NCBI GenBank assembly: GCA_016194375.1
Contig: JACQBU010000003.1
Span: forward strand, 1 to 33,310
Direction: 5' to 3'
DNA length: 33,310 nt
DNA from: Nitrospinota bacterium
Lineage (GTDB): Bacteria; Nitrospinota_A; UBA7883; JACRGQ01
Under the pieces are notes generated by a model. The model saw only the letters and a list, made by a program, of their open reading frames with translations. It did not search any database and was not told the origin of the DNA. Shown piece by piece: positions 2,529 to 11,261 of this stretch. Each line of letters opens with the position of its first letter. Position 1 is the first letter of the stretch. The translations under genes were made by a program, and so were the position numbers.

Positions 2529-4390
2529 AACAAACATACGACCCGGATTGGAGGACCAAATACGCGTCCCTCGTCGTCACGGCCGGGGAGGCGGTGAAGC
2601 GGATACAACCGGGCCACCGCGTGTTCATAGGGAGCGGGTGTTCTGAGCCTCAGGGGCTGGTGCGCGCGCTGACCGAGAGGGCGGGGGAGCTGGCGGACGT
2701 CGAGATAGTCCAGCTTCTGACGCTCGGCGACGCGCCCTACGCCAAGAAGGAGTATTCCGACGCGTTCACCATCAACGCGTTCTTCATCGGCGCCACGGTG
2801 AGGGAGATCATCCGCGAGGGGCTTGGGAGCTACACGCCGATTTTTCTTTCGGACATCCCGCGGCTTTTTTCTTCCGGCAAACTGCCCCTGCACGCCGCCC
2901 TGATACAGGTCAGCCCGCCGGACTCGGAAGGGATGTGCAGTTTCGGGGTCGCGGTGGACATAGTGAAAAGCGCGGCGGAAAACGCGCTCACCGTGATAGC
3001 CCAGGTGAACCCGAACATGCCGCGCACGCTTGGGGACGCCTTCATCAACGTCTACGACGTGGACGCGCTGGTGGCGTCCGAGGAGCCGATAATCGAGATG
3101 CCGGACCTGCCCGCCACGGACGTCAGCCGGCAGATCGGCGAGTACGTGGCCTCGCTGGTGGACGACGGCGCCACCATCGAGCTCGGAATAGGGAAAATCC
3201 CTCACTCCGTCGCGCAGTCGCTCAAGGGGAAGCGGGACCTGGGGATACACACGGAGATGGTCACCGACGCGTTGCTGGACCTCATCCAGTCCGGCGCCGT
3301 CACCGGCGCCATGAAGACCCTCGACAGGGGAAAGGTGACGGCCAGCTTTTGCTTCGGTACGAAGAGGCTCTACGAGTTCGTGGACGACAACCCGATGTTC
3401 TCCTTCCACCCCACGGAATACGTCAACGACGTCGGCCTGATTTCAAGGCAGAAGGGGATGGTCGCGATAAACACCGCGCTTCAGGTGGATCTCACCGGCC
3501 AGGTCTGCGCCGACTCGCTCGGGTCGGAGTTCTACTCCGGCATCGGCGGGCAGGTGGACTTCAACCGCGGCGCGGCCCGCGCCGAAAACGGAAAGGCGAT
3601 AATCGCCCTTCCGTCCACGGCCCACGACGACAAGATTTCCCGCATAGTCTGCACCCTGACCCCGGGCGCCGGCGTGGTGACCACCCGCGGCGACGTGCAT
3701 TACGTGGTGACCGAATACGGCGTGGCCTACCTGCACGGCAAGAGCGTGCAGGAGCGCGCTCTGGCGCTCGTGAGCGTGGCGCACCCCAAGTTCCGCGCCG
3801 AGCTTATGGAGCAGGCCATTAAGGAAAGGTACCTGCGGCCGGAGCTCAAGGACGTGGAGGGGAAGATGATGATAGGGCCAAAGGAGCTTCGCACGTCCAT
3901 GCTCCTCAACGACGGCACCCAGATAAGCTTCCGCGCCATACACCCGACGGACGAGCCGCGGATGCGCGACCTGTTCTACACGCTGTCGCGCCAGACCGTC
4001 TACTACAGGTTCATGGCGGAGTTGAAGTCCATCCCGCGCTCGCAGGTGCAGAACTTCGTGTACATAGACCATTGGAACGCGGTCTCCATCGTCGCCACGC
4101 TTCCCACCGCGTCGGGCGAGGAGATAATAGCCGTCGGCGCCTATTACGTGGACAAAAAGACGAACCGGGCCGAGGTCGCGTTCACCGTGGCGGACGCCTG
4201 GCAAAAAAAGGGGATAGGGGCGTTCCTCATGGCCCACCTCGCCACCATCGGAAAGCGCAACGGCCTAAAGGGGTTCACGGCGGAGGTGCTCCCGCAGAAC
4301 AAGCCGATGCAGAAGGTCTTTTTCAACTCCGGCCTCAAGGTGAGGACCACGCCCGGCGAGGGCGTCATCTCGTTCGAAATGGATTTTTAA
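2525..4390 (+). CDS. Acetyl-CoA hydrolase/CoA-transferase fused to a GNAT acetyltransferase domain
   Basis: The open frame extends far upstream, but the real gene most likely starts at the GTG at 2525, which overlaps the stop of the preceding gene (GTGA). This gives 621 residues. Residues 1 to about 440 resemble 4-hydroxybutyrate/acetyl-CoA transferases (DWRTKYAS start, GIGGQVDF at 339-346, VTEYGVAYLHGKS). E244 in GIHTEM aligns by eye with the catalytic glutamate of the clostridial 4-hydroxybutyrate CoA-transferase. Residues about 460-621 form a GNAT fold with the acetyl-CoA loop motif QKKGIG at 560-565. The same two-domain arrangement is known in bacteria. Substrate is unknown: it may move CoA between acetyl-CoA and a carboxylic acid, while the GNAT part could acetylate a protein lysine. 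The upstream ligase suggests a shared acetyl-CoA/acetate role. Confidence 0.88.
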   Translation: MKQTYDPDWRTKYASLVVTAGEAVKRIQPGHRVFIGSGCSEPQGLVRALTERAGELADVEIVQLLTLGDAPYAKKEYSDAFTINAFFIGATVREIIREGLGSYTPIFLSDIPRLFSSGKLPLHAALIQVSPPDSEGMCSFGVAVDIVKSAAENALTVIAQVNPNMPRTLGDAFINVYDVDALVASEEPIIEMPDLPATDVSRQIGEYVASLVDDGATIELGIGKIPHSVAQSLKGKRDLGIHTEMVTDALLDLIQSGAVTGAMKTLDRGKVTASFCFGTKRLYEFVDDNPMFSFHPTEYVNDVGLISRQKGMVAINTALQVDLTGQVCADSLGSEFYSGIGGQVDFNRGAARAENGKAIIALPSTAHDDKISRIVCTLTPGAGVVTTRGDVHYVVTEYGVAYLHGKSVQERALALVSVAHPKFRAELMEQAIKERYLRPELKDVEGKMMIGPKELRTSMLLNDGTQISFRAIHPTDEPRMRDLFYTLSRQTVYYRFMAELKSIPRSQVQNFVYIDHWNAVSIVATLPTASGEEIIAVGAYYVDKKTNRAEVAFTVADAWQKKGIGAFLMAHLATIGKRNGLKGFTAEVLPQNKPMQKVFFNSGLKVRTTPGEGVISFEMDF

Positions 4391-5525: not shown

Positions 5526-6512
5526 ATGAACATTAAATTTATTGACTTATTCTCGGGAATCGGCGGATTTAGGATAGCCGCGAATCAATCGTTCAAGGAA
5601 AATAATATTTCAGGCCAATGCGTGTTCTCCAGCGAAATTGATGGTTACGCAAGGGAAGAATACTTTGCCAATTTTGGAGAATATCCCTCGGGCGACATAA
5701 AAAAAATTGACGCGAGGTTGGTCCCCGATCATGACCTGCTCCTTGCTGGTTTTCCCTGCCAGCCTTTTAGCATCATCGGCAACGGAAGGGGATTTGAGGA
5801 CACCAGGGGGACCTTGTTCTTCGACATCGCCAGAATATTGGATGAAAAGCGGCCGATGGCTTTCGTGTTGGAAAATGTTAAGCGGTTAGTGGGCCACGAC
5901 AAGGGGAAAACGCTCGAACACATTCTAGGTACACTCAGGAATCTCGGTTATTTCGTGGATTATAAGGTATTGAACGCCCTGGATTATGGCCTTCCTCAAA
6001 AAAGGGAACGCGTATTCATCGTCGGCCTTCAAAAACCGATGGTTTATTTTTGGCCGCCAAAACATAATCACCTGAAACCATTGTCGGAAATTCTCGAGAA
6101 AAAGGTGCATAAAAAACACTATGCTTCGGAAAAAATTGTTGTTAAAAGAAAAAATCGCCACTCATCCAAGCACACTCCTTCCATATGGCATGAAAACAAA
6201 TCCGGAAATGTCAGCTCGTACCCGTTTTCATGCGCCCTGCGAGCCGGAGCCTCCTACAATTATCTCCTTGTCAACGGGGAAAGAAGGCTGACCCCGCGGG
6301 AAATGTTGCGGCTCCAGGGATTTCCGGACGACTTCAAGATCGTTGTCCCCGACGCCCAAATTAGGAAGCAGGCGGGTAACTCCGTCCCTGTCAACGCGGT
6401 GAAGGCAGTGATAGACTCCTTAATTCCGCTTTTAAAAACGGAGTTGCAGATGAGCATGGTATCGGAAAGGACAAAGCCGTACCGGAGAAAGAATGGAAGA
6501 CGAGTCGCCTAA
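5526..6512 (+). CDS. DNA (cytosine-5-)-methyltransferase
   Basis: This 328-residue protein carries the ordered motifs of C5-cytosine methyltransferases, which transfer a methyl group from S-adenosylmethionine to a cytosine in a specific DNA site. Motif I is FIDLFSGIGG (5-14), motif IV is FPCQPF with catalytic C78, motif VI is ENV (116-118), motif VIII is PQKRERVFIVGL, motif IX is RRLTPREMLRLQGFP, and motif X includes QAGNSVPVNAV from Q282. The target recognition region (about 185-245) is short, so the site probably is too, but it cannot be read from sequence. All catalytic motifs are intact. The last 20 nt overlap the next gene, and the region is visibly richer in A+T than its neighbours, which suggests horizontal transfer as part of a restriction-modification pair. 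Confidence 0.95.
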   Translation: MNIKFIDLFSGIGGFRIAANQSFKENNISGQCVFSSEIDGYAREEYFANFGEYPSGDIKKIDARLVPDHDLLLAGFPCQPFSIIGNGRGFEDTRGTLFFDIARILDEKRPMAFVLENVKRLVGHDKGKTLEHILGTLRNLGYFVDYKVLNALDYGLPQKRERVFIVGLQKPMVYFWPPKHNHLKPLSEILEKKVHKKHYASEKIVVKRKNRHSSKHTPSIWHENKSGNVSSYPFSCALRAGASYNYLLVNGERRLTPREMLRLQGFPDDFKIVVPDAQIRKQAGNSVPVNAVKAVIDSLIPLLKTELQMSMVSERTKPYRRKNGRRVA

Positions 6513-7239
6513 ACTAAGGACTGTAAATAAGGTCAAGCCTCCCTACGCCATAAATGATTTCCCCAGAGATTTCGGCCAGATAATTGGCGGTGAGTTGGTT
6601 TATCTTCTGGCAACAAAAGGAAGACCTGACCTTGAGGGGCCGGAATGGGAGGCGATCTTCGCGAAAAGCATCGGCGCCGAGTGGAAACCCTCAAACATCG
6701 GGTTGGACGACGTTGTGTTGGAATCATGCGCCTGGGGCGCCAAGACTGTTAAGGCAAAAGCTCCTAGTAAGCAAAAAAGCGTAAGATTGATATCAGGCAG
6801 AAACTCACCTTATTATTCCTTCGACGTTGAAAATGTCAAAGAAATTCCGCCGAATGAAGTTGGGAATAAAGTCCTTTCCATATGGAACGAAAGGGTTGCG
6901 GATATACGTAAACGACACAAACATTTACGAACGGTGGTCATGGTTAAATCCCATGATTTATCCGAGGTTTTTATTTTTGAGTTTGAAACCGTAAGATACG
7001 ATTCGGAAATCTATGCTTGGAAATGGAATAAGAGCAAAAACCTTGAAGGATTGGAAAAAGGCTCCAACAGGCATAAGTTTACATGGCAACCTTCTGGCGC
7101 TCAGTTCACCATTATCGAGGATGTTCCGGAGGATGGATTGATCATCAGGATAAAAAAGCCGAAAAAACTTGATAAACAAAAGGTGCTTAAGGATATCGGC
7201 TTCGATAAAAGTTGGGTGACGGTTATTAAAAAGCGATGA
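6493..7239 (+). CDS. Unknown protein, candidate type II restriction endonuclease partner
   Basis: This 248-residue protein starts inside the methyltransferase gene (20-nt overlap, different frame), so it was probably acquired and is expressed together with it. I do not recognise a named family. Residues 51-87 hold EWEAIFAKSIGAEW, then GLDDVVLESCAWGAKTVK. The D72/D73, W81 and K84 arrangement, followed by SVRLISGRNSP (about 96-106), could be a divergent PD-(D/E)xK nuclease core, but that is inference from pattern and context. The C-terminal half is lysine-rich and has alternating hydrophobic stretches that suggest beta strands. It has no signal peptide or membrane segment. Alternatives are a DNA-binding or mismatch-repair accessory protein. 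It lies 30 nt from the convergent mqnA gene. Confidence 0.6.
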   Translation: MEDESPKLRTVNKVKPPYAINDFPRDFGQIIGGELVYLLATKGRPDLEGPEWEAIFAKSIGAEWKPSNIGLDDVVLESCAWGAKTVKAKAPSKQKSVRLISGRNSPYYSFDVENVKEIPPNEVGNKVLSIWNERVADIRKRHKHLRTVVMVKSHDLSEVFIFEFETVRYDSEIYAWKWNKSKNLEGLEKGSNRHKFTWQPSGAQFTIIEDVPEDGLIIRIKKPKKLDKQKVLKDIGFDKSWVTVIKKR

Positions 7240-9679: not shown

Positions 9680-10530
9680 TCATCGGGTGAGTGAGATTAT
9701 CTCAAGCTCCAAAATATGCCATTCGTCCGCCCCGCCGCCGTGGAGCCTTAGGTTGGCCCGCGACAGGCTGACGATGTTCCTTTTAAGGGTTTCCGAATCC
9801 GACTTGGACGCCTGTTCCGCGTATTTTGGGAAGTAATGCGGGTGTACGCCGCATTTCCCGGCCAGCTCGTAAGTCGGGAGGTTAAGCGGCTTGAGGGTTT
9901 TTATAAGAAGAAGAATCCTAAATTGGCGCGCCATCATCGCCAATATCGGCTCCACCCTCTCCCCGTTTTCCCTGAGCGACTTTAGTTGTACCAGCGAGTC
10001 CGCGGTCCTCTTGTCGGAGACGGCCTCCACGAGGTCGAATACGTTGTCCGCCGACGGCACGCTTATGCACGTCTCCACGTCGGCCGCACCGGCCGCTTCG
10101 TTCCGGCCGAGATACGTCTTGAGCTTTTCCAGCTCCGTATCAAGAAACGCGATTCTATCCCCGAACCTTTCCGCCATCAACGCGGCGGCGGCCGCGTCGA
10201 ACTTTATGCCGCTCGAGGCGAGCTTTTGGTTGACGATTCGCACCCGCTCGTTTTCCTTGGGGTCGAATTTCATCTCCGTCGTTTTCAGGGCGAATTCCTT
10301 CCAGCCCTTCCTCCGACCGTCCACCTTTCCGGCGGCGACCACGAGCACGACGTCGGGCGAAGGTTTTTCGGCGTATCGCAACAGTCCCGCGACGCCGGCG
10401 TCGGGTCCGCCGCCTCGGCGAGCAGTCTTCGTTTTATGTCCGCGACGGCGTCGCTTACGAGCCGCTCCTCCGGGCCGTGTATGAAAAAAACCTGGCCGCC
10501 GGACAGCTTTTTTGACGCCGAGGCCCCCAC
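9680..10530 (-). pseudogene. holA: DNA polymerase III delta subunit, disrupted by a frameshift and internal deletion
   Basis: The delta subunit opens and loads the sliding clamp. Two pieces in different frames together make a short HolA. The N-terminal piece starts at a GTG at 10530, 2 nt after the previous stop, and reads KLSGGQVFFIHGPEERLV then ADIKRRLLAEAADP. The C-terminal piece (about 10410 down to 9680) reads GVAGLLRYAEKPSPDVVLVV, then the rest of the ATPase-like and collar domains. The frame changes near 10390-10425. Compared with normal delta subunits (about 340 residues), roughly 50-60 residues between these pieces are missing, including the stretch before the LVLV strand. As the gene is normally essential, an assembly or sequencing error is at least as likely as a real lesion. 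The nearest simple ORF (from a TTG at 10381) would lack the N-terminus. Confidence 0.75.
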
Positions 10531-10532
10531 GC

Positions 10533-11261
10533 CTACCTGCCCTCGGCGAGTCGTCTTATCAGGTGTTCCGGAAGTTTTGCGCTGGCCATTTTTTTCTGGG
10601 TTTTTGCGATGTCGTACTCCACCCGCCGATAGCCCGCGTTGCGCCCCTTTTCGTCGTAGATTAGGTAGCATGCGTCGCGGTTGGAGTCGCGCGGCTGGCC
10701 GACGCTTCCGACGTTTATTATGTATTTTCGTTTCGCGTCCAGGGTCCAGTACAGGTCGTGAATCGGTATTATGTTGGCCTCGTCGGCGTACTCCAGGATT
10801 ATCGGCTGGTGGGAGTGTCCGACGAAGCAGACGTTCCTCTCCAGCGCCGCGTAGTTTTCCATGGCGTCTTGGAGCGAAACTATGTACAGCCACTCCTCCG
10901 GCTTGAGAGGTGTGGAATGGGCGAGTTGGACGTTGCCGAACAAACCCGAAGGGGAGAGGGTCTTGAGATACGCCTTGTTCTCGTCCGAAAGGACTTCCGT
11001 CGTCCAGACAAGGGACTCGTAGGCCTGCGGGTTGAAGTACGAGGGGTCCGTCAGCCCCACCGCGGCCCAGTCGTGGTTGCCGGCCAAAACGACGTCGGCG
11101 TTCTCCCTGACCATGCCCACGCATTCGTTGGGGTTTGGCCCGTAGCCCACCATGTCCCCCAGAAATATCCTAGCGTCCGGCTCCTCGCGCTTCATGTCGT
11201 CAAGCACCGCGGCGAGGGCCTCCATGTTTCCGTGCACGTCCGAATATACGGCCAGCTTCAT
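10533..11261 (-). CDS. Metallophosphoesterase (YfcE/MJ0936-like)
   Basis: This 242-residue protein has the full calcineurin-like phosphoesterase signature for two metal ions: D8 and H10 (SDVHGN), GDMVGYGPNP, GNHDW, a middle histidine (QLAHSTP) and GHSHQP, followed by INVGSVGQPRD. It probably hydrolyses a phosphodiester or phosphomonoester in the cytosol, but the substrate is not predictable. It starts 5 nt after the nusB stop, and the next gene (holA) starts 2 nt after its own stop, so it is an internal gene of the long operon. Confidence 0.85.
   Translation of the reverse strand: MKLAVYSDVHGNMEALAAVLDDMKREEPDARIFLGDMVGYGPNPNECVGMVRENADVVLAGNHDWAAVGLTDPSYFNPQAYESLVWTTEVLSDENKAYLKTLSPSGLFGNVQLAHSTPLKPEEWLYIVSLQDAMENYAALERNVCFVGHSHQPIILEYADEANIIPIHDLYWTLDAKRKYIINVGSVGQPRDSNRDACYLIYDEKGRNAGYRRVEYDIAKTQKKMASAKLPEHLIRRLAEGR

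Follow-up and report, generated by a model that had tools for sequence, protein, structure and literature searches.

Introduction

Delta, the DNA polymerase III subunit encoded by holA, acts as the clamp opener of the clamp loader, and a review describes its residues Leu73 and Phe74 as critical for clamp loading, where they dock in a pocket of the clamp (PMC11139829). The gene is listed among the ancestrally essential genes of Enterobacteriaceae (PMC11481867), and its absence has been reported from some insect endosymbionts, as Carsonella and Portiera, described as being without dnaN, dnaX, holA and holB, and Evansia, described as being without dnaX, holA and holB (PMC2175510, PMC5322561, PMC4122945). 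Broken reading frames in genome assemblies can also be of technical origin: spurious pseudogenes are reported to arise from low coverage, a statement made for frameshifts and internal stops in general (PMC11017572). Heptamers of the A_AAA_AAG kind are reported as a type of frameshift site (PMC5009743).

Here we analyse a holA gene that does not form one uninterrupted reading frame. It lies in a stretch of 33,310 nt, hereafter the window, which is contig C40 of a draft genome (G000; 1.91 Mb, 135 contigs, 94.4% complete). The original prediction for this locus held that the N- and C-terminal parts of holA lie in different frames with 50-60 residues missing between them, and offered three explanations: an assembly error, a real lesion backed by another copy of the gene, or a reduced delta subunit.

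Results

Geometry of the holA lesion

The delta frame of a genome of the same genus (G001; 343 aa) served as the reference for the break and was compared with the window by tblastn. Two matches were obtained: one, in frame -2, covers 10509-10393 (residues 26-64; 48.7% identity, E 1e-8), and the other, in frame -1, covers 10387-9686 (residues 108-341; 52.6% identity, E 2e-73), which confirms the difference in frame between the two parts. Residues 65-107 of G001 delta (43 aa, 129 nt) are missing from the window, in which 5 nt (10388-10392) separate the two matches, and the net loss relative to G001 is about 124 nt, a length not divisible by three. The predicted loss of residues was therefore correct and its predicted size slightly high when measured against G001, while relatives with longer linkers than G001 would, according to the alignment, give a larger missing block. 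The junction is also seen in a multiple alignment in which the two pieces were entered as separate rows. Past the junction, the frame of the N-part continues out of register until it meets a stop near 10285, and the frame of the C-part is open for 235 codons up to its stop. The locus is delimited upstream by an intact gene (Table 1) that presumably encodes a metallophosphoesterase.

Table 1. Features of the holA locus in the window.
Feature	Position	Strand and frame	Basis or remark
N-terminal part of holA	10393..10509	(-), frame -2	tblastn with G001 delta residues 26-64; start codon somewhat upstream
C-terminal part of holA	9680..10387	(-), frame -1	TIGR01128, PF21694, G001 delta residues 108-341
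Junction with frame change	10388..10392	(-)	5 nt where G001 delta has 43 residues (129 nt)
Perfect 14-nt palindrome CGACGCCGGCGTCG	10390..10403	no strand	overlaps the holA junction
Intact flanking gene, upstream of holA	10533..11261	(-)	242 aa, 71% identity to G001

Other genes of the window are mentioned here as observations in their own right. A frame at 414-2525 with CoA-ligase and ATP-grasp domains precedes, on the plus strand at 2534-4387, an acetyl-CoA hydrolase/transferase frame that carries a C-terminal GNAT acetyltransferase domain. The interval 5526-7236 of this strand encodes a C-5 cytosine DNA methylase and, overlapping it, a 248-aa frame without a Pfam match at E 1e-5, which is perhaps its restriction-modification partner.

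Identity of the two parts and content of the missing block

On its own, the C-part scores well above the cut-offs of both NCBIfam TIGR01128 (155.2 bits, cut-off 80) and the Pfam model of the C-terminal domain, PF21694 (70.5 bits, cut-off 27). The N-part in its own frame gave no NCBIfam match and a single, unrelated chance row in Pfam (E 0.15), as it is too short for general models. It is nevertheless matched by the family profile (E 0.003, profile positions 17-52) and by an N-terminal query from G001 delta run against the draft (E 1.6e-7), and its identity as holA rests on this G001 match and the family profile. The model of the N-terminal domain of delta, PF06144, which matches the intact G001 delta at 43.9 bits, has zero matches in the whole draft at E <= 10.

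Alignment of the family profile with solved delta chains places the E. coli segment MSLF in the missing block. The corresponding motif in 10 relatives is TVSFF, in which T, S and F do not vary and V and the last F hardly vary. The clamp-binding element (Met71, Leu73 and Phe74 in E. coli) thus falls inside the missing block and was not found in the holA of the window. Either piece, or both joined, should thus be unable to open the clamp.

Search for a second copy and comparison with relatives

The original prediction proposed a search of the genome for a second holA and an inspection of the same locus in relatives, both of which were carried out. A 10-sequence profile found no second holA in the 94.4% complete draft, its matches being the two holA pieces and holB only; a weak match on contig C6 (E 0.006), considered as a second holA, turned out to be this holB, and a second profile match in a further genome, G002 (contig C39), is dnaX. 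The N-terminal 96 residues of G001 delta, among them the missing block, match only this locus in the draft. The next best DNA matches of positions 10300-10500 are at chance level (E at least 0.18), and a second copy of the locus was rejected accordingly. A real lesion backed by another copy is thus not borne out in this draft, although such a copy could lie on a missing contig.

In 9 of the 10 other genomes of the family, in contrast to the window, holA is a single reading frame (the single stop counted for G001 falls outside the open frame of 343 codons), and the flanking gene adjoins it in all nine relative loci examined. In the tenth genome, G004, holA and the flanking gene are both absent, a pattern that resembles a gap. 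A contig search, from which the genome of the window itself or very near genomes may be omitted, returned no independent assembly of the same species, its sole match being a distant Bacteroidales record.

Constraint on the C-part and sequence of the junction

The C-part contains zero stops across 233 matched residues. Its tree branches measure 0.515 for the window and 0.408 for G001 (ratio 1.26), as against 0.278 and 0.161 for the intact neighbour gene (ratio 1.73), and the C-part is therefore without excess rate relative to this neighbour; the same outcome would be expected of a very recent lesion. Differences to G001 at the three codon positions are 0.37, 0.26 and 0.54 in the C-part, compared with 0.12-0.24, 0.09-0.22 and 0.44-0.52 in six neighbours, and GC3 is 0.75 in the C-part, 0.79-0.84 in the six neighbours and 0.73 in G001 holA. 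The gene is thus a faster one, yet it still looks coding, with its codon-position bias kept. An old pseudogene was rejected, as neither the branch ratios nor the codon-position bias reveals relaxed constraint in the remaining coding parts. The C-part lacks signs of decay, so that the break, unless spurious, must be very recent.

The surrounding DNA had been described as rich in short GC repeats. This is weakly borne out, in that positions 10300-10520 hold three direct-repeat pairs of 13-19 nt, all of them imperfect and in two copies, and slippage between direct repeats was discarded for this reason. Exact forward repeats of 11-14 nt from 10385-10406 amount to two 11-mers, the partners of which are 16 and 21 kb away. 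The palindrome that overlaps the junction is one of 5 perfect palindromes of at least 14 nt in the window; 92 of the 33,305 possible 5-nt positions overlap a palindrome of this length, a figure to be read with the association having been noticed post hoc. The palindrome is compatible with the closure of a poorly covered gap at a false short overlap and, to the same degree, with a real foldback deletion. A limited literature search for gap closing at palindromes returned a single paper, on a transcriptome assembler, and none on the subject itself.

Other replication genes and background of similar lesions

Several replication genes of the draft are gapped. The TIGR00594 match, labelled dnaE1 here, is split between two contigs: the part covering profile positions 1-169 extends to the final base of C111 (length 4,414 bases) and the part covering positions 175-1022 starts on C57 (length 43,593 bases), 70 bases from the contig end; the two ends share no exact overlap of 8-399 nt. 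A second gene of the dnaE family is whole. dnaX is represented by a C-terminal stub whose open frame extends from base 1 of C41 (L063 1-600), and dnaN (TIGR00663) has no match in the whole draft, being present in 8 of the 11 family genomes, G001 included; its surroundings differ between G001 and G002. In G001, dnaX has an internal loss of about 90 residues relative to G002 together with a frame change (L057 1131-2409; G001:C38:13554-14832, minus strand), a lesion that much resembles that of holA in the window.

A survey of the frequency of such lesions sampled 244 kb from the draft, 271 kb from G001 and 337 kb from G002. Frame-changed rows were initially obtained for 2 of the 56 genes with a reference in the draft, 3 of 60 in G001 and 0 of 66 in G002. 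Three of them were set aside: in the draft, a kinase plus a response regulator that form a fusion in G002, and in G001, two adjacent genes that we take to be fliQ and fliR and a frame antisense to ribBA/ribH, the latter judged from coordinates. What remained was holA (1/56) in the draft and dnaX (1/60) in G001, both known before sampling, and without these two genes the background is 0/55 and 0/59, respectively.

Discussion

Of the three explanations offered at the outset, an assembly error is the best supported: we consider it likely that the holA break results from the draft having been misassembled locally, across a poorly covered gap, and that the organism has an ordinary holA. This reading is favoured by the geometry of the break, the lack of another copy of the gene or of the missing block elsewhere in the draft, the single-frame orthologues, the C-part without decay, the other broken replication genes of the draft, the internal loss in G001 dnaX, the palindrome at the junction, the essentiality of holA and the precedent of low-coverage pseudogenes. 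In such a process, about 124 nt beside the GC-rich palindrome, presumably poorly covered, would have been dropped in assembly, the two sides of the gap would have been stitched at a putative false short overlap, and the wrong join would leave two frames that mimic a deletion with a frameshift. Against misassembly stands the rarity of such lesions in the draft, in which 0 of 55 sampled genes besides holA carry one, and the facts that the palindrome could equally promote a real deletion and that a very recent real lesion would give the same result in the rate tests.

A real and recent deletion, present in the sampled population or part of it, has a small share of the probability. The cell would then obtain delta from a copy on a missing contig, which a 94.4% complete draft leaves room for, or the variant would belong to a minority or a dying lineage. 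The sequence is contiguous as given, the palindrome could have promoted the event and similar lesions are rare elsewhere in the sampled draft; however, holA is normally essential, a second copy was not seen, a lone single-frame copy is present in 9 of the 10 other genomes of the family, and the C-part shows no excess rate. Far less probable still is that the pieces are used as they stand, either as a shorter protein made through a -1 shift or as two proteins. The frame of the C-part is indeed open upstream of the junction (as a 291-codon open frame) and there is a TTG codon at 10381, but a shift cannot bring back the 43 missing residues, which include the clamp-binding element, for which reason programmed frameshifting was dropped as the main account, and no X_XXY_YYZ heptamer of the A_AAA_AAG kind was seen by eye in the N-part frame between 10360 and 10420. 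A working reduced delta is also unlikely because the pieces, single or joined, are without the clamp-binding element; together with the parts being out of frame, this argues against the third of the original options.

A broader alternative is that the lesion belongs to a whole clamp and clamp-loader system that this lineage is losing in the manner of some insect endosymbionts. The coincidence of an unmatched dnaN, a dnaX of which a C-terminal stub is left and a broken holA is the sole point that keeps this idea alive, to which the broken dnaX of the sister genome G001 may be added. It is countered by the precedents being reduced endosymbiont genomes, by a full-length holB frame, which excludes that dnaN, dnaX, holA and holB are all gone, by the presence of dnaE family genes, by the location of the dnaX and dnaE1 defects at contig ends, and by the single-frame dnaN and holA of G001; dnaN is also missing from two other genomes of the family, and these have the lowest completeness of all 11. 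We therefore regard decay of the system as highly improbable, and with it the reading that a lineage with a 1.9-Mb genome, its holA broken through the clamp-binding element, is dismantling its sliding clamp and loader and replicating without a conventional clamp. If the holA lesion were real, the need for delta as clamp opener would be questioned beyond extremely reduced symbionts. The locus also calls for caution, since essential genes that seem broken in drafts can mislead annotation and claims of gene loss.

Set beside known systems, the locus shares with Carsonella, Portiera and Evansia, as these are reported, a holA that is not intact and a dnaX and dnaN that are incomplete or not found, and differs from them in the 1.9-Mb size of the draft, the full-length holB, a sister with single-frame holA and dnaN, and the position of the dnaX and dnaE1 defects at contig ends. 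With regard to HolA itself (TIGR01128, PF06144 and PF21694), the C-part exceeds the cut-offs of its two models, the N-part resembles G001 delta and the gene neighbour is that of nine relative loci, whereas 43 residues, the clamp-binding element among them, are absent and the frame shifts at the junction. In comparison with the spurious pseudogenes reported at low coverage (PMC11017572), holA of the window loses about 124 nt instead of carrying a small indel or stop, and has in common with them a single lesion in an otherwise coding gene, within a fragmented draft in which replication genes break at contig ends.
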